A stretch of 64,000 bases of DNA from positions 372,001 to 436,000 of the forward strand of contig NZ_CP093397.1 of the NCBI RefSeq assembly GCF_029027585.1, in the 5' to 3' direction. The notes beneath the pieces were generated by a model. The model was given only the letters and a program-made list of their open reading frames with translations, was not told the DNA's origin and did not search any database. The DNA is from Sulfurimonas sp. Lineage in GTDB: Bacteria; Campylobacterota; Campylobacteria; Campylobacterales; Sulfurimonadaceae. Shown in pieces: positions 7,979 through 15,547 of this stretch (its first letter is position 1; the number at the start of each line of letters is the position of its first letter). The position numbers and the translations under genes are program-made.

Positions 7979-10516
7979 ATGAAAAAGATTAAAACTATTT
8001 ACTTAAAAGATTACAAAAAGCCAGAGTTTGATATTCAAAAGACTCAACTAATTTTTGAACTATTCCAAGAACATACAGTAGTTACAAATACTATGAAAAT
8101 TAAAAAGCTAGATGCCACAATAAAAGATATAAAACTAGATAGTATCGACTTGGAACTTTTAGATATTTGGTTAAATGATTTAAAATTAAATGATAGTAGA
8201 TATATTATAGATAAAGAGAGTTTAACTATTTTAAATGTTCCATCAGAATTTAGTTTAAAAATCATCAATAAGATTTATCCGCATAAAAATACAGAACTTG
8301 AGGGACTTTACAAATCTGGTTCTATATTTTGTACTCAAAATGAGCCTGAAGGTTTTAGAAAAATCACACCATTTCTAGATCGACCAGATGTTATGAGCAT
8401 CTATACAACAACAATCATTGCAGATCAAGATAAGTACCCTACTCTTTTGAGTAATGGAAACAAAAAAAACTGTCATGATTTTTTAAATGGCAGACATGGA
8501 ACTACTTGGCATGACCCTCATCCAAAACCATCGTACCTTTTTGCTTTAGTTGCTGGTGACTTAGGTATCGTTAGTGATGAGTTTACAACTGCATCTGGTG
8601 AAGAAGTAGAGTTAAATATATACTGCGACAAAGGAAATGAATCAGAGTGTTCGCATGCTATGAAGTCTTTAAAAGAAGCTATGGTTTGGGACGAAGAAAA
8701 ATATGGACGGGAGTATGATTTAGAGATTTATAACATAGTTGCTGTTGATAGTTTTAACATGGGAGCGATGGAAAACAAAGGCTTAAATATTTTTAATTCT
8801 CACTATGTTTTAGCCGATGAAACAAAAGCAACAGATGCTAATTTTATGGGCATACAGAGTGTTATCGCTCATGAATATTTTCACAATTGGACAGGCAATC
8901 GCATAACTTGTCGTGACTGGTTTCAACTTACTCTAAAAGAAGGACTAACTGTTTTTCGTGACCAATGCTTCTCTGCTGATTTAAACTCTAGTGAAGTACA
9001 ACGAATAGAAGATGTAAAATCATTAAGAGAGCGTCAATTTGTAGAAGACGCTTCACCAACAACTCACCCTATTCAGCCAAAATCATACATATCTATGAAC
9101 AATTTTTATACTGCCACAGTTTATGAAAAAGGTGCTGAAGTCATTAGAATGATTCATACTCTTTTGGGTGAAAAAAAATACAGAGATGCAACAGATTTAT
9201 ATTTTAAAACATTTGATGCTAGGGCAGTTACAACAACTGACTTCTTGTGGGCTATGAGCGAGGCTAGTGGTGTTGATTTAAAAGCATTTGAGCTTTGGTA
9301 TCATCAGTCTGGAACTCCAAAACTTCAAGTATCTCAAAAGTTTGAAAATGGCATCTATACTCTTAGCTTAACGCAAGTAATCCCTAAAAGTGTAGATGCT
9401 AAAGAACAAAAGCCTTATTATTATCCGTTAAAAGTAGGACTTATTGGTTTAGATGGAAATGAAATATTGGAACAAATTTTAATCATTTCAAAAGAAAAAG
9501 AAGATTTTATATTTGAAGGGTTAGCATCTAAGCCTTACTTATCTATAAATCGTGATTTTTCAGCACCAATAATAATTGATCAAGATGTAAAAGAGTACTC
9601 ATTTTTAATGAAACATGACACAAATAGTTTTATAAGGTATGAATCAACACAATCTTTTGGCATCGATACAATAGAGCAAATCATCTCCAATGGCTTGATA
9701 GATAATGAATATATAGACTCATTTGGTTATCTACTTGACCTAGATATTGAGCTTTCTTACAAAGCTTTGCTTTTAGAACTACCATCTATTTCTACTCTAA
9801 TGCAAAGACAAAAAGAAGTTGATGTTGAGCCTTTATATTTTGCGAAAAACAGACTACTTAAAGAGTTAGCATCTATACATAAAGAAAAACTATTAAAAAT
9901 TTACAAAGACTTAGATTCTTTAAGTATTGGAAAAAGAGCTATAAAAAATAGAGTTTTAAATATATTATCAGCATTAGAGAGTGAAGAAATTATAATCTTG
10001 GCAAAAAAGCAATATGAAGAATCTTTAACTATGACTGATAAAATGGCTGCTTTAATAATCCTTGAAGATATATCAAAAGAAGAATCTAACGAAGCATTAA
10101 AACATTTTTATGGCATCTATAAAGATGATACTTTAGTTATGAACAAATACTTTGGGATTTTAGCCTCATCTTCAAGAGAAGGTGTTTTAAAACGAGTTAT
10201 TGATTTACAAGACGACAAATCCTATGATAAAAAAATTCCAAATTTAGTGCGTTCTTTAATTGGTACATTTACAAGAAACTACAAATATTTTCACTCTAAA
10301 GATGGAGATGGATATAAATTTATAGCAGATAAAATTATTGAAATAGATAAAATAAATGCTCAAATGGCTTCAGGACTCTGTTCTTCATTTAGAATTTATG
10401 ATAGATTGAACAAATCTAATAAAAATGTGATGAAAATTGAGCTAGAGCGTATCATTTCTACACAGAGTCTTTCTAAAAATTCTTATGAAATCGTTAGTAA
10501 AATCTTAAAAGATTAA
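7979..10516 (+). CDS. pepN: Aminopeptidase N (M1 metallopeptidase)
   Basis: 845 residues, in the normal range of bacterial PepN. It removes N-terminal amino acids from peptides in the cytosol. The substrate-binding GAMEN motif is followed by the zinc motif HEYFHNW (first His at residue 298) and the third ligand in LKEGLTVFRDQ. The C-terminal half is the helical Ig-like and ARM-type region usual for PepN. A TACAAT box lies just upstream in the gap shared with the divergent binding-protein gene. Single-gene unit. Confidence 0.95.
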   Translation: MKKIKTIYLKDYKKPEFDIQKTQLIFELFQEHTVVTNTMKIKKLDATIKDIKLDSIDLELLDIWLNDLKLNDSRYIIDKESLTILNVPSEFSLKIINKIYPHKNTELEGLYKSGSIFCTQNEPEGFRKITPFLDRPDVMSIYTTTIIADQDKYPTLLSNGNKKNCHDFLNGRHGTTWHDPHPKPSYLFALVAGDLGIVSDEFTTASGEEVELNIYCDKGNESECSHAMKSLKEAMVWDEEKYGREYDLEIYNIVAVDSFNMGAMENKGLNIFNSHYVLADETKATDANFMGIQSVIAHEYFHNWTGNRITCRDWFQLTLKEGLTVFRDQCFSADLNSSEVQRIEDVKSLRERQFVEDASPTTHPIQPKSYISMNNFYTATVYEKGAEVIRMIHTLLGEKKYRDATDLYFKTFDARAVTTTDFLWAMSEASGVDLKAFELWYHQSGTPKLQVSQKFENGIYTLSLTQVIPKSVDAKEQKPYYYPLKVGLIGLDGNEILEQILIISKEKEDFIFEGLASKPYLSINRDFSAPIIIDQDVKEYSFLMKHDTNSFIRYESTQSFGIDTIEQIISNGLIDNEYIDSFGYLLDLDIELSYKALLLELPSISTLMQRQKEVDVEPLYFAKNRLLKELASIHKEKLLKIYKDLDSLSIGKRAIKNRVLNILSALESEEIIILAKKQYEESLTMTDKMAALIILEDISKEESNEALKHFYGIYKDDTLVMNKYFGILASSSREGVLKRVIDLQDDKSYDKKIPNLVRSLIGTFTRNYKYFHSKDGDGYKFIADKIIEIDKINAQMASGLCSSFRIYDRLNKSNKNVMKIELERIISTQSLSKNSYEIVSKILKD

Positions 10517-10658: not shown

Positions 10659-12125
10659 ATGGCAAGATTAGTTATTCTTGGTGCTGGTGTAGCAGGTCAT
10701 ACGGCGGCATCTTTTGCTGCAAAATGGCTTGGAAAGGAGCATGAGGTAGTAGTAGTTACTCCAAATGCAAAATGGAACTGGATTCCTTCAAACATCTGGG
10801 TAGGTGTTGGAGAGATGAGTAAAGAAGAAGTTACTTTTGACTTAGCGCCTGTGTATGAAAAAGCAGGGGCAACTTACAAACAAGCAAAAGCGGTTTCTAT
10901 AAATCCTGAGGGTAGTGAAGCAATTGACAAGTCTTTTGTAACTATCGAATATACAGGACAAGACAAAATTGGTACTACTGAAGAAGTTGAATATGATTAT
11001 CTTATCAACGCAACAGGACCAAAACTAAACTTTGGTGCAACTCCAGGACTTGGTGAAGGTACTAACCTAGGGGAGCATACTGTTTCTGTTTGTACTGCTG
11101 ACCATGCTGTTCATGCATCTCATAAATTAAATGAATGTATTGATAAAATGAAAGCTGGGCAAAAACAAAAATTCCTAATTGGAACTGGACATGGAATGTG
11201 TACTTGTCAAGGTGCAGCATTTGAGTATATCTTCAACATTGAACACAAACTTCAAGAGAAGGGTGTTAGAGATATGGCTGACATCACATGGATTTCAAAC
11301 GAATCTTTCTTAGGTGACTTTGGTATGGGCGGTTTGCATTTTAAAATGGGTGGTTTTATTACTTCATCTAAAGTATTTGCTGAATCTCTATATGCTGAAC
11401 GCGGTATGGATTGGATTATAGGAGCACATGTTAATAAAGTTGAATCAGGTATGGTTACTTATGAATCACTTGATGGAAGTATTGATACTCAAGCATTTGA
11501 TTTTGCTATGCTTATCCCACCATTTGCTGGTGTTGGTATGAAAGCTTATAGCAAAGATGGCAGTGATATTACAGATACAGTTTTTGCTCCAAATGGAATG
11601 ATGAAAGTTGATGCTGATTATACAAAAACTTCGTATGCTGATTGGGAACCAAAAGATTGGCCAAAAACTCTTCAATCTCCTGTATATAAGAATATTTTTG
11701 CTGCTGGTATTGCTTTTGCACCTCCACATCCGATTTCAAAACCTATGAAAACACCAAATGGAACTCCAATCGTACCAACTCCACCAAGAACGGGTATGCC
11801 TTCTGCAATGATGGGTAAAGCTGTTACTCAAAGTATTGTTGATATGATAAATGGAGCTAGCGAGCCTACACATACATCATCTATGGCAGAGATGGGAGCA
11901 GCTTGTGTTGCTTCTGCTGGGAAAGGATTCTTTAGTGGAACTGCTGCAGCAATGACTGTTTTTCCAATTGTTCCAGACTTTAAAAAATATCCAGGAACTG
12001 GTCGTGATATCAATGGTACAACAGGTGAAGTTGGTCTTGCAGCACACTGGGTGAAACATTTACTTCACCATTTATTTATGTGGAAAGCTCAACTTAAACC
12101 AGGCTGGACTTTAATACCAGAATAA
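10659..12125 (+). CDS. Sulfide:quinone oxidoreductase-family flavoprotein
   Basis: 488 residues. The N-terminal FAD-binding motif is GAGVAGHTAASFAAK; the second dinucleotide fold follows near residue 170. The segment PPRTGMPSAMMGKAV corresponds to the end of the SQR catalytic core, and the C terminus (HHLFMWKAQLKPGW) is a membrane-interacting amphipathic tail. SQRs oxidise sulfide at the periplasmic face of the membrane and reduce quinone. Where classical SQRs have their second redox Cys (FAAGVC-type motif), this protein has FAAGIAFAPP, while a C-x-C (MCTCQG) occurs near residue 186. It may therefore be a divergent SQR type or a relative with another substrate. AGGGGAC precedes the ATG. Confidence 0.75.
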   Translation: MARLVILGAGVAGHTAASFAAKWLGKEHEVVVVTPNAKWNWIPSNIWVGVGEMSKEEVTFDLAPVYEKAGATYKQAKAVSINPEGSEAIDKSFVTIEYTGQDKIGTTEEVEYDYLINATGPKLNFGATPGLGEGTNLGEHTVSVCTADHAVHASHKLNECIDKMKAGQKQKFLIGTGHGMCTCQGAAFEYIFNIEHKLQEKGVRDMADITWISNESFLGDFGMGGLHFKMGGFITSSKVFAESLYAERGMDWIIGAHVNKVESGMVTYESLDGSIDTQAFDFAMLIPPFAGVGMKAYSKDGSDITDTVFAPNGMMKVDADYTKTSYADWEPKDWPKTLQSPVYKNIFAAGIAFAPPHPISKPMKTPNGTPIVPTPPRTGMPSAMMGKAVTQSIVDMINGASEPTHTSSMAEMGAACVASAGKGFFSGTAAAMTVFPIVPDFKKYPGTGRDINGTTGEVGLAAHWVKHLLHHLFMWKAQLKPGWTLIPE

Positions 12126-12164: not shown

Positions 12165-12368
12165 ATGAGCGAAGAAAAAAAAGAAAAAGTTGTTGCTGAT
12201 AAAGAACATGAGCATGTACAGCATGTAGAACCATATACACCTCAATTTGGTACCATGATACCAAGCGGTACTCAAAAGTTCATGAGAACTTGTGTGATTT
12301 GGCAACTATTTAGATTTATTGCTATAAATATAAAAATGACTATATTAATTATTAAGAGTCACCACTAA
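12165..12368 (+). CDS. Small conserved-looking protein next to SQR-like gene
   Basis: 67 residues. A charged, His-rich N terminus (KEHEHVQHVEPYTPQFG) is followed by SGTQKFMRTCVIWQ and a hydrophobic or amphipathic C-terminal helix ending KSHH. AGGAGA precedes the ATG, and it starts 39 bases after the SQR-like gene, so the two probably form an operon. I do not know its function. A membrane-associated helper of the flavoprotein is possible, since it has one potential membrane helix and a single Cys. The good ribosome site and non-random composition support a real gene. Confidence 0.7.
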   Translation: MSEEKKEKVVADKEHEHVQHVEPYTPQFGTMIPSGTQKFMRTCVIWQLFRFIAINIKMTILIIKSHH

Positions 12369-12376
12369 TATTTCTC

Positions 12377-12400
12377 GTTCCTTCAATTTTGAAGGAACGA
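12377..12400 (+). terminator. Perfect hairpin after the SQR operon
   Basis: CGTTCCTTCAA pairs perfectly with TTGAAGGAACG, giving an 11-bp inverted repeat with a 2-base centre. It lies right behind the 67-residue gene. No T-run follows on the plus strand (A-rich sequence does), so it is not a textbook intrinsic terminator; it may protect the 3' end of the transcript. Confidence 0.5.
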
Positions 12401-12435: not shown

Positions 12436-13239
12436 ATGATTAAAAATATAATCACATACCCAACGCCTACAGGTGTGGAATATGCTCCTGACATTAGAGT
12501 TTTTGATGAGCAACTATTTATTTTTATTGATGATTTAAAAGAAACTGCTGAGGCTAACAAGCTTGAGGGACTTGCTGCAACTCAAGTTGGAAGTTATTAT
12601 AATGTAGTAATAGTTAAAAAAGATGAAGAATTTTTAGAGCTTATAAATCCAAGAATTCTTCGTAAATCAGGAAAAGTAACTTCAAATGAAACAACTTCTT
12701 ACTTTCCAAATACAAGTGCTAAAATGCAAAGATATGAATCCATAAGCCTAGTTTATGAAGATAGAAATGGAGATTCTCATTCACTAAAAGCCGATGGAGA
12801 TTTTTCTATACTCCTTCAAAGAAAGATTGACTATCTTTTTGGAGCAAATTTTTTAACACAACTAAAAGGAAAAGATAAAGAAAATTTTGAAACTAGTTTA
12901 AATGCAAACGGGGCAAGTTGTCCAACAACTCCTTCAACATTTAGTCGAGATTATTTCATAAAAGCTTCAAACTTTATTTTAGTTGCGATGCTTTTACTAC
13001 TTATATCATCATTTTTTATAAGTCAAAAAGATATACTAGATGATATGTGGAATTATCAGCTATTTCTTTCATTTACTGTTTTGGGCATAAATATTTTTTA
13101 TGCTCTGTATTCATACTATGAAAATAAAAAGTTTAGCATCTGCACAAATTGTTATAATATGAGCATCTTTGGTGTTGTTGCAATGGGGTTTTTTAGATTA
13201 ACTATGATTATGCTAGTATCTCTTTTATTAATAAATTGA
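12436..13239 (+). CDS. Degenerate peptide-deformylase domain fused to membrane helices
   Basis: 267 residues. Residues 1-150 follow the peptide-deformylase fold: motif 1 is kept (LEGLAATQVGSYYNV), as is the strand ELINPRIL. Motif 2 (normally EGCLS) reads TTSYFPNTS without Cys. Motif 3 (normally HExDHLxG) reads RKIDYLFG without either His. All three metal ligands are therefore lost, and it cannot act as a normal deformylase. Residues about 173-267 form three membrane helices with a short CTNCYN loop. It sits 25 bases upstream of a hybrid kinase gene on the same strand, so a sensory or scaffold role is possible. That role is inference. Confidence 0.7.
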   Translation: MIKNIITYPTPTGVEYAPDIRVFDEQLFIFIDDLKETAEANKLEGLAATQVGSYYNVVIVKKDEEFLELINPRILRKSGKVTSNETTSYFPNTSAKMQRYESISLVYEDRNGDSHSLKADGDFSILLQRKIDYLFGANFLTQLKGKDKENFETSLNANGASCPTTPSTFSRDYFIKASNFILVAMLLLLISSFFISQKDILDDMWNYQLFLSFTVLGINIFYALYSYYENKKFSICTNCYNMSIFGVVAMGFFRLTMIMLVSLLLIN

Positions 13240-13264: not shown

Positions 13265-15547
13265 ATGTATGAAGAATTACCAAACTTAGTTAAACATAGA
13301 AATATTTTTATTGACTCTAAACATGAGATAGTAATAAACTGGTTATCTTATACTTCTCCCCAAAAAATATTAAAACAATATAACATAGATAAAGAGTTTT
13401 TTTTATCAAAATATGCTGGTGGTGTTTTTGATTACTTTATGAATGTAATCCAAGGAAGTGTTAAAATAGGGCAATGTCCTGTTATGAATGAGTTCTTACT
13501 TTACTTAAAAAACAAAGAGATGAGTGCTGATGAATTATTTGAAATATGTAATCATTTTCGTCGTTCTATGATTGACTTTTCTTATGATAAAAACCTTGAT
13601 TCAAAAGATATGACAAATGAAATATCTTTTATTTTTGATAAAAACTTTAGAGGTGTTTTAAAGTTTCATACAGAAACAGTTTTTCAAAAACTAACAGATG
13701 CCAGACAAACAGCAGATTCTGCCTCACATGCAAAAGAGTATTTTTTATCAAATATGTCTCACGAGATAAGAACACCGCTTAATGCAATCTTGGGTTTTGT
13801 AAATCTTCTTATGGATGAGAGTATTTCAAAAAAACATAGAAACTATCTAAACATTATCTTTAATAGTGGAGAAAATCTTTTAAGCATTATAAATGATATC
13901 TTAGATTTCTCAAAACTTCGTAGTGGTGAGTTTACTATCGAAGCAAAAAACTTCTTACCACATGATGAAATCAGCCAAACAATGGAACTTTTTGTAGCAA
14001 GTGCAAATGAAAAAAACATAACCATCACATCTTTTATAGACCCTTACATCCCAAAAGAGTTATATGCAGATTCTCTAAGAATGAAACAAATTTTATCAAA
14101 TTTTTTAAGTAATGCCATAAAATTCACCCCAAGTAGTGGACATATTTGCGTAGAAGCATCTTATAAAAAACAACATCTTATACTTAGTGTAAAAGACAAT
14201 GGGGTAGGAATAAAAAAACATGATTTAGACAGTATTTTTACTGCTTTTGTTCAAGCAAACTATGACCAACTAAAAGACCTAGATGGAACAGGTTTAGGAC
14301 TCTCAATCTGCCATCAACTTGTACAAAGAATGGGAGGGGAAATTGATGTTAAATCAACTTTCAAAGAGGGAAGCACTTTTTCCATAAGTATTCCAGCATC
14401 TTCTCAAAGTGAACTATGCCCTATTTATGAAAATTTGTTAAATTTTCAATCTTTAAAAATTGTTATTTATTCAGAAAATAAAAAGGATTTTTATAAAGCA
14501 GACTCTTTTTTAAAATATGCAAAAGTATTTGATATGAATGTAGAAGTTGTCGATAATTTAGATACTAATTTTGATATAGCATTTTTTTTAAATGAAGACG
14601 CTAGTGCAGATTTCAAAGCACAACTAATAAACTCAGATAAAAAATTTATAGCAATGGTTAATAAACCAAGTGATGAATATGATAAATATGACAACATTGC
14701 TTTTATATCTTTTCCTTTTTATTGCTCAAAAATTAAAGATACTTTTAGTGAAATTTTTAATCCAGATGCTTATTCCCCGCATAAGAAAAATATAGCTGCA
14801 AAATTTATTGGTCATATACTTATTGCAGAAGACAATGAAGCTAACCAAGAGCTTATAAAAATCATACTTACAAAATATGGACTTAGTTTTGATCTTGCTC
14901 ACAATGGTTTAGAGGCAGTAAATCTTTATAAACAAAATCATTATGATTTAATCCTTATGGACGAGCAGATGCCAATCATGGATGGTACACAAGCGGTTAA
15001 AGAAATTTTAGAATATGAAATAAGCAAAGGACTTGGACATACCCCTGTTTCAGCACTTACAGCAAATGTAATCAAAGGGGCGAAAGAAAAACGATTAAGT
15101 AGTGGCTTTGATTCATTTTTAGGTAAGCCAATTATCTTAAAAGATGTAGAAGAAGTTTTTACTCTTTACTTGAAAATCGACCTTAGCCAAGAAAATAAAG
15201 TAGAAATAAAAAACTCCAAAGATGCCATAATTGGATTAGATGCGACTAAACTAAAAGAAGAACTTATGCTAGATCAAGATGAGTTACTTATGCTTTTAAG
15301 GTTGTTTATGAAAAAGATGAAAACACAACTGCCACAATTAACAGATGCTATAAAAAACAGAGATTACAAAAAAATTGCACTTAATGCACATAGTATAAAA
15401 GGTTCTAGTGGAAACTTTAGAATAGAGTCAGTTCAACATGACGCTGGTGAAATGGAAGCAATGTCTAAAGATGAAAATGATACTTATGACTATGAGAAGT
15501 GTTTAAAAAGTATAAAGCAAAGAATTCAAGAGATAGAAATCTCTTAA
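13265..15547 (+). CDS. Hybrid sensor histidine kinase with receiver and HPt domains
   Basis: 760 residues, no membrane helix. Residues 1-140 are an all-helical N-terminal region of unknown family. The HisKA domain carries H166 (MSHEIRTPLNAILG). The ATPase domain has NAIKFT, DNGVGI and GTGLGLSI. A segment near 385-495 looks like a worn receiver domain without its acidic pocket. A true receiver follows with D566 (LILMDEQMP), and an HPt domain ends the protein with H709 (NAHSIKGSSGNF). All phosphorelay residues are present, so signal can pass His-Asp-His to a separate regulator. AAGGAG precedes the ATG. It is probably co-transcribed with the deformylase-like gene. The convergent response regulator at 15551-16300 is a possible output. 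Confidence 0.92.
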   Translation: MYEELPNLVKHRNIFIDSKHEIVINWLSYTSPQKILKQYNIDKEFFLSKYAGGVFDYFMNVIQGSVKIGQCPVMNEFLLYLKNKEMSADELFEICNHFRRSMIDFSYDKNLDSKDMTNEISFIFDKNFRGVLKFHTETVFQKLTDARQTADSASHAKEYFLSNMSHEIRTPLNAILGFVNLLMDESISKKHRNYLNIIFNSGENLLSIINDILDFSKLRSGEFTIEAKNFLPHDEISQTMELFVASANEKNITITSFIDPYIPKELYADSLRMKQILSNFLSNAIKFTPSSGHICVEASYKKQHLILSVKDNGVGIKKHDLDSIFTAFVQANYDQLKDLDGTGLGLSICHQLVQRMGGEIDVKSTFKEGSTFSISIPASSQSELCPIYENLLNFQSLKIVIYSENKKDFYKADSFLKYAKVFDMNVEVVDNLDTNFDIAFFLNEDASADFKAQLINSDKKFIAMVNKPSDEYDKYDNIAFISFPFYCSKIKDTFSEIFNPDAYSPHKKNIAAKFIGHILIAEDNEANQELIKIILTKYGLSFDLAHNGLEAVNLYKQNHYDLILMDEQMPIMDGTQAVKEILEYEISKGLGHTPVSALTANVIKGAKEKRLSSGFDSFLGKPIILKDVEEVFTLYLKIDLSQENKVEIKNSKDAIIGLDATKLKEELMLDQDELLMLLRLFMKKMKTQLPQLTDAIKNRDYKKIALNAHSIKGSSGNFRIESVQHDAGEMEAMSKDENDTYDYEKCLKSIKQRIQEIEIS

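Follow-up and report, generated by a model that had tools for sequence, protein, structure and literature searches.

A membrane-anchored pseudo-deformylase linked to sulfide:quinone oxidoreductase loci in Campylobacterota

Sulfur oxidisers of the Campylobacterota rank among the major primary producers at vents and redoxclines. Among the regulators that respond to sulfide or persulfide, SqrR, CstR and FisR are DNA-binding proteins. The gene described here lies in a 64,000-nucleotide stretch of Sulfurimonas sp. DNA (the window; contig NZ_CP093397.1, positions 372,001 to 436,000) and bears a partial likeness to four known systems. It encodes a pseudo-deformylase of 267 aa with a three-helix membrane tail, hereafter PDFL (12436..13239, + strand), which was delineated by its ORF, Pfam, AlphaFold and homologue alignment.

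PDFL is like peptide deformylases (PDFs; PF01327) in its fold and the overall order of its motifs, and unlike them in that the catalytic ligands are all replaced as a set, a membrane domain is added and the gene neighbourhood is a different one. Its locus is like sulfide:quinone oxidoreductase (SQR) operons in that PDFL and an SQR-like gene are packed into a tight operon-like unit; it differs from the SQR operons in the portions of the literature covered by our search, where no deformylase-fold or three-helix CxxC accessory of SQR is described. Searches of that literature for deformylase pseudoenzymes, and for deformylase together with Sulfurimonas, returned nothing relevant. If PDFL were a sensor, it would share with SqrR, CstR and FisR the reading of sulfane sulfur by cysteines; unlike them, it has no DNA-binding domain by Pfam and is membrane-anchored. 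Finally, like membrane-anchored input partners of hybrid kinases, PDFL is paired with a hybrid kinase gene at many window-family loci; unlike such partners, no pair was seen in the fetched loci outside that family, and within it the pair is broken both ways.

The fold assignment is supported by sequence profiles and by structure prediction. PDFL matches PF01327 over residues 2-148 (12439..12879, + strand) with an E value of 7.5e-27 and a score of 94.3 bits (cut-off 22.8), while the cut-off of the NCBIfam equivalog TIGR00079 for true PDFs is not reached (64.8 versus 103.95 bits). The AlphaFold model, built from a 59-row alignment, has a mean pLDDT of 82.8 and consists of a PDF domain followed by three long helices; residues 1-19 are mostly of low quality. 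PDFs occupy the top ranks of a Foldseek search with this model (1icj, E 4.4e-10), and model residues 21-165 form the span matched to solved PDFs by Foldseek and VIA. The nearest solved structure is the Helicobacter pylori PDF, which gives a profile match of E 2e-30 (2ew5) and a VIA-align superposition with Z 16.2 and rmsd 2.2 over 135 residues (model residues 21-158). A preliminary description of the locus, made from the sequence alone, had proposed a deformylase fold, and the profile search, AlphaFold and Foldseek all agree with it. A structure search of a viral library returned only phage PDFs, weaker than the cellular ones, and a viral origin of PDFL was rejected.

We then compared the ligand positions with those of the normal PDF that the same genome encodes separately (G000:C1:1321479), which carries EGCLS and QHEVDH. 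At the metal-ligand Cys of motif 2, PDFL has T87 (12694..12696, + strand), and the H-E-x-D-H of motif 3 is replaced by R129-K130-I-D-Y133 (12820..12834, + strand). Across 143 distinct long-form PDFL proteins, the Cys position is occupied by Thr (116), Ser (20), Asp (6) or Asn (1), and never by Cys. The first His has become Arg in 127, Gln in 10 and Val in one, and is kept in five; the catalytic Glu has become Lys (124), Gln (14), Met (3), Tyr (1) or Thr (1), and the second His has become Tyr (128), Phe (6), Met (6), Ile (2) or Leu (1), so that neither is kept in any homologue. Three further loci (L210, L211 and L215) carry a PDFL that fell outside the 143 because a longer overlapping ORF was taken instead, and these proteins likewise lack the Cys, the Glu and the second His. 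L214, a filler stretch of 100 bases, was set aside as well. The replacement of Cys, His and His was thus read correctly at the outset. That description had also named two observations that would overturn it, a homologue with an intact metal set and a fold prediction without a deformylase domain; the complete set occurs in 0/143 homologues, and the domain is predicted. Since the loss is seen across 143 homologues, it is family-wide and is not due to chance, sequencing error or decay, and on these homologues decay or a frameshift artefact was rejected as the origin of PDFL. Judged from its residues, PDFL cannot be a peptide deformylase by known chemistry.

Other parts of the pocket are retained. 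Asn71, Asp132 and the equivalents of the substrate-side residues Glu88 (the Glu of motif 2) and Arg97 are kept in all 143 proteins, and the Gln50 equivalent is kept in 133 (Glu88, Arg97 and Gln50 in E. coli PDF numbering). The GxG of motif 1 has mostly turned into L-[DEN]-[AG]. New residues have become fixed in the family as well, namely a CxxC, E229 (141 proteins), Y222 and Y225.

The membrane domain spans residues 172-265 (12949..13230, + strand). Its helices lie at 172-192, 198-232 and 237-265 in the AlphaFold model, and hydropathy also gives three hydrophobic segments, in keeping with the three membrane helices noted earlier behind the PDF domain. Overlooked at that time were the cysteines and the genes upstream. 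The CxxC (C236 and C239; 13141..13152, + strand) sits in the loop between helices 2 and 3 and is present in all 142 homologues that reach it, and a linker cysteine preceding the first membrane helix, C162 (12919..12921, + strand), is near-invariant (140/143). Across PDFLs the median net charge is -1 (acidic) for the loop that joins helices 1 and 2 and +1 (basic) for the CxxC loop. These charges would fit, as a tentative reading, a cytoplasmic position of both the PDF domain and the CxxC loop.

To analyze the distribution of PDFL, we ran a 28-row profile (A1) on 397 genomes sampled across the phylum, which belong to a single order; a sample taken at class level likewise consisted of this order. 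The genomes split cleanly, with a PDFL match of at least 210 bits in 79 and the next matches at 132 bits or below, which look like ordinary PDFs in length. PDFL-positive genomes make up 45/52 of the window's own family (f1) and 19/29 of f4, which we infer to be Sulfurimonadaceae and Sulfurovaceae, respectively, from the names of relatives and from a synteny shared with Sulfurovum mangrovi (rpsI and rplM downstream), as well as 10/11 of f8, 2/2 of f9, 2/4 of f11 and one genome of f7; none was found in f2, f3, f5, f6, f10, f12 or f13. A protein search also recovered full-length relatives in most of 200 genomes of the window's family, and the best 80 of 196 relatives from a contig scan belong to Campylobacterota, mostly Sulfurimonas, or are named only ‘bacterium’. 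One metagenome-assembled genome among these 80 is labelled Helicobacter pylori, and the label looks wrong. In a PF01327 search of 60 genomes, those with a PDFL-type match also carry a strong normal PDF, except G333, where the other match has a stop, and G558, whose assembly is 82% complete. A quick IQ-TREE phylogeny of 79 PDFLs, 31 normal Campylobacterota PDFs and 2 outgroups places PDFL in one clade apart from the 31 PDFs (SH-aLRT 98), with long branches between the two groups.

The most constant neighbour of PDFL is an SQR-like gene. In the window it encodes a flavoprotein of 488 aa (10659..12125, + strand), assigned from its match to the Aquifex aeolicus SQR 3hyv (E 8.6e-38), three aligned cysteines, synteny and co-occurrence. 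Residues C145, C183 and C416 are fixed in 120/120 proteins and align with Cys of 3hyv, where we take them to have active-site roles. When the SQR was typed against NCBIfam, type III was matched weakly and only in part (39.7 versus 525 bits). The SQR-like gene lies upstream on the same strand, two or three ORFs away, in 120/143 PDFL loci from several families, at a median distance of 272 bases, and such synteny in related genomes in part reflects shared ancestry. Among the 397 genomes, 111 have this SQR: 79 have both genes, 32 SQR alone, none PDFL alone and 286 neither. This one-way co-occurrence has a Fisher value of 1e-57, which is not a true probability because the genomes are related.

Between the two genes, 119 of the 120 SQR-linked loci have a small ORF. 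The exception (L069) probably reflects a PDFL start over-extended across the small gene, and the neighbourhood labels c6 and c8 proved to be spurious antisense ORFs masking it. In the window the small gene (12165..12368, + strand), recognised by locus conservation, encodes a peptide of 67 aa (48-67 aa are typical) with a C-terminal KSH(H). The peptides share the core RTCxIWQFIRFIxINIKMxxVVxKSH, and their hydrophobic, Arg/Lys-bearing C-terminus mostly ends in KSH (window and L222-L241). Pfam and NCBIfam searches with the peptide gave no match. We also fetched the SQR loci of 20 genomes without an adjacent PDFL, comprising 18 of the 32 SQR-only genomes and two with PDFL elsewhere (G016 and G497); the small gene directly follows SQR in all 20. 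Thus, SQR and the small gene appear to be the older pair, with PDFL as an added third gene, and the small peptide appears to be older and more widespread than PDFL. The SQR of sulfur-oxidising Campylobacterota therewith comes with two uncharacterised conserved partners.

A 12-bp perfect inverted repeat (12375..12400, + strand) separates the small gene from PDFL, and it is the position of this hairpin that is conserved, not its sequence. Of the small gene-PDFL gaps of at least 30 bases, 97/106 fold at z < -2 relative to base shuffles, and their sequences differ; a perfect stem of at least 8 occurs in 56/120 gaps and in 1/120 shuffled ones (the shuffles keep base content, not dinucleotides). The hairpin often has no T-run, and a consensus scan of the window found no canonical terminator there, so that this candidate was dropped. 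The hairpin may set the level of PDFL below that of SQR and the small peptide; its conserved place between the pair and PDFL is more in keeping with unequal expression than with a fixed stoichiometry.

We then propose that PDFL, a dead deformylase anchored in the membrane, has been recruited in Campylobacterota to serve SQR-type sulfide oxidation as an accessory, a reading to which we give an even chance. In this model, a single PDF duplication in the ancestry of the sulfur-oxidising Campylobacterota would have produced a copy that lost its metal and catalysis and gained the C-terminal three-helix membrane domain. The copy would have been recruited to a membrane-associated SQR that already travelled with the tiny conserved peptide. 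On the cytoplasmic face, the dead domain could dock SQR and its small partner or act for them as a ligand-binding module, and the membrane-proximal CxxC together with C162 could take up, relay or report the sulfane sulfur or the redox state that SQR produces. We infer from these features the physical contact with SQR, the sulfur chemistry of the cysteines and the membrane orientation of PDFL, which probably acts through its cysteines. The data suggest that the second job of the fold lies in the handling of sulfide, rather than in the sensing of peptides. As 32 of the 111 SQR genomes have no PDFL, this SQR functions in its absence, and PDFL is no obligate subunit; the paralogues found away from SQR also count against the accessory reading. 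PDFL is a clean example of how an essential enzyme of housekeeping can become a membrane pseudoenzyme, and its link to sulfide oxidation is testable.

It is tempting to extend the accessory model, at the cost of a clear drop in probability, to a membrane sulfide or polysulfide receptor joined to a sulfur relay. Here the emptied pocket, with its Arg, its Lys and the kept Arg99 and Glu85, would bind a sulfur anion, C162 and the CxxC at the inner membrane face would accept or report the sulfane sulfur of SQR, and the micro-protein would be the third partner. If true, Campylobacterota would possess here a sulfide-oxidation complex, or a sensor, of a new type. The PDB titles 4az4 and 4al2 describe E. 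coli PDF with bound hydrosulfide, and, by analogy, the ancestral PDF site could have met sulfide; this is a lead, as the metal is present in those structures and its ligands are gone in PDFL.

PDFL also occurs in a second recurrent, sulfur-related context. Of the 143 loci, 23 have no SQR, five of them at contig ends, and 14 of the 23 show part of a set consisting of a divergent MerR gene, an AhpD-like CMD protein, a periplasmic DsrE-like protein and sometimes YeeE sulfur transporters. None of the 120 SQR-linked loci has MerR, CMD or DsrE nearby, and one has YeeE. Four of the 23 (L055, L057, L064 and L191) have other contexts though their contigs had room to show one. In L053, L059, L148, L067 and L206, PDFL paralogues lie by a divergent MerR gene and an AhpD-like protein, and some of these loci add a secreted DsrE-like protein or a pair of YeeE-type transporters. 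The second-context PDFLs fall in two places of the tree, a clade of 13 (SH-aLRT 99; the context is not seen in all 13) and a group of three that lies within the SQR-linked rows (89). PDFL thus seems to have entered the MerR/AhpD-like/DsrE setting on at least two occasions.

The divergent MerR regulators bear on one alternative, in which PDFL is a sulfide or polysulfide sensor that uses its cysteines, or an anion held in the Arg/Lys pocket, to signal through the adjacent kinase, where there is one, to SQR expression. The membrane tail and the conserved cysteines would suit such a sensor, and so would the gene downstream. As the preliminary description had it, a hybrid kinase follows immediately (13265..15547, + strand), at a gap of 25 bases; Pfam, a structural model and synteny define a globin-like N-domain, HisKA, HATPase, receiver and Hpt. 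A kinase stands directly downstream in tandem on the same strand at 83 of the 143 anchors, with a median gap of 13 bases, in many cases in the window's family. However, it is not beside PDFL in any of the 23 fetched loci of f4, f8, f9 and f11 (some on short contigs), nor in L035, L036, L071 and L208; L035 and L036 are two of the four closest relatives of the window PDFL. Conversely, it directly follows SQR and the small gene in L228, L229 and L240, where there is no PDFL. The kinase has, moreover, its own input domain: the N-terminal 150 residues form a confident fold (pLDDT 92.1) with weak globin/RsbR matches only (best E 0.049; TM about 0.65 to the RsbR N-domain), and at least one relative has an inserted PAS domain (L087). 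Synteny thus fails both ways, and on this ground a kinase-input module was rejected as the deep core function of PDFL; the kinase is better seen as an attachment to the SQR operon in this family. It is a neighbour in many window-family loci and lies outside the deep conserved core. PDFL may nevertheless have a signalling role in the window's family, where the tandem is frequent; the sensor explanation as a whole we regard as doubtful. Within the kinase N-domain (13265-13714), alignment A3 shows C71, P72 and C95 to be invariant and H39 and H97 near-invariant.

Less probable still is that PDFL serves as a maturation factor, holding the formylated N-terminus of the small membrane peptide or of nascent SQR during insertion without cleaving it. 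The small gene stands directly before PDFL in nearly every SQR-linked locus and the substrate-side residues are kept, as such a role would ask; however, the same peptide is present in the 20 SQR loci where PDFL is not adjacent, and its N-terminus is variable in length and sequence. A slightly lower standing, and a decidedly improbable one, belongs to the original proposal that a dead formyl-peptide pocket acts as an fMet-peptide receptor or an inhibitor module for the kinase. The fold is intact and the equivalents of Glu88, Arg97 and, mostly, Gln50 persist, but Arg, Lys and Tyr fill the metal hole, motif 1 is altered, the kinase has a globin-like N-terminal domain of its own, and the conserved partner is SQR. 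Of the features to be checked for conservation among homologues, the ligand loss held throughout, and the kinase neighbour did not. It is very improbable that PDFL is either a paralogue in decay or an active deformylase whose metal site is unusual: its descent from a deformylase and the single His left in five proteins would allow it, but the open frames, the fixed new residues, the long-term synteny and the strong normal PDF alongside speak against it.

Two further observations concern the neighbourhood and the annotation of PDFL. In many window-family loci an aminopeptidase N gene (pepN, 7979-10516), an N-terminal processing gene, lies just 5' of SQR; none was seen there in the fetched f4 and f8 loci, and the adjacency is probably coincidental. 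A plasmid search returned one record that covers most of the query, from Sulfurovum mangrovi, in which PDFL lies in two frames (L272, 7001-7816) and is split into two CDSs annotated ‘peptide deformylase’. PDFL thus carries this label in a public record, and such genes should not be counted as PDFs. The record is 395 kb long and labelled a plasmid; it carries rpsI and rplM and may be chromosomal.
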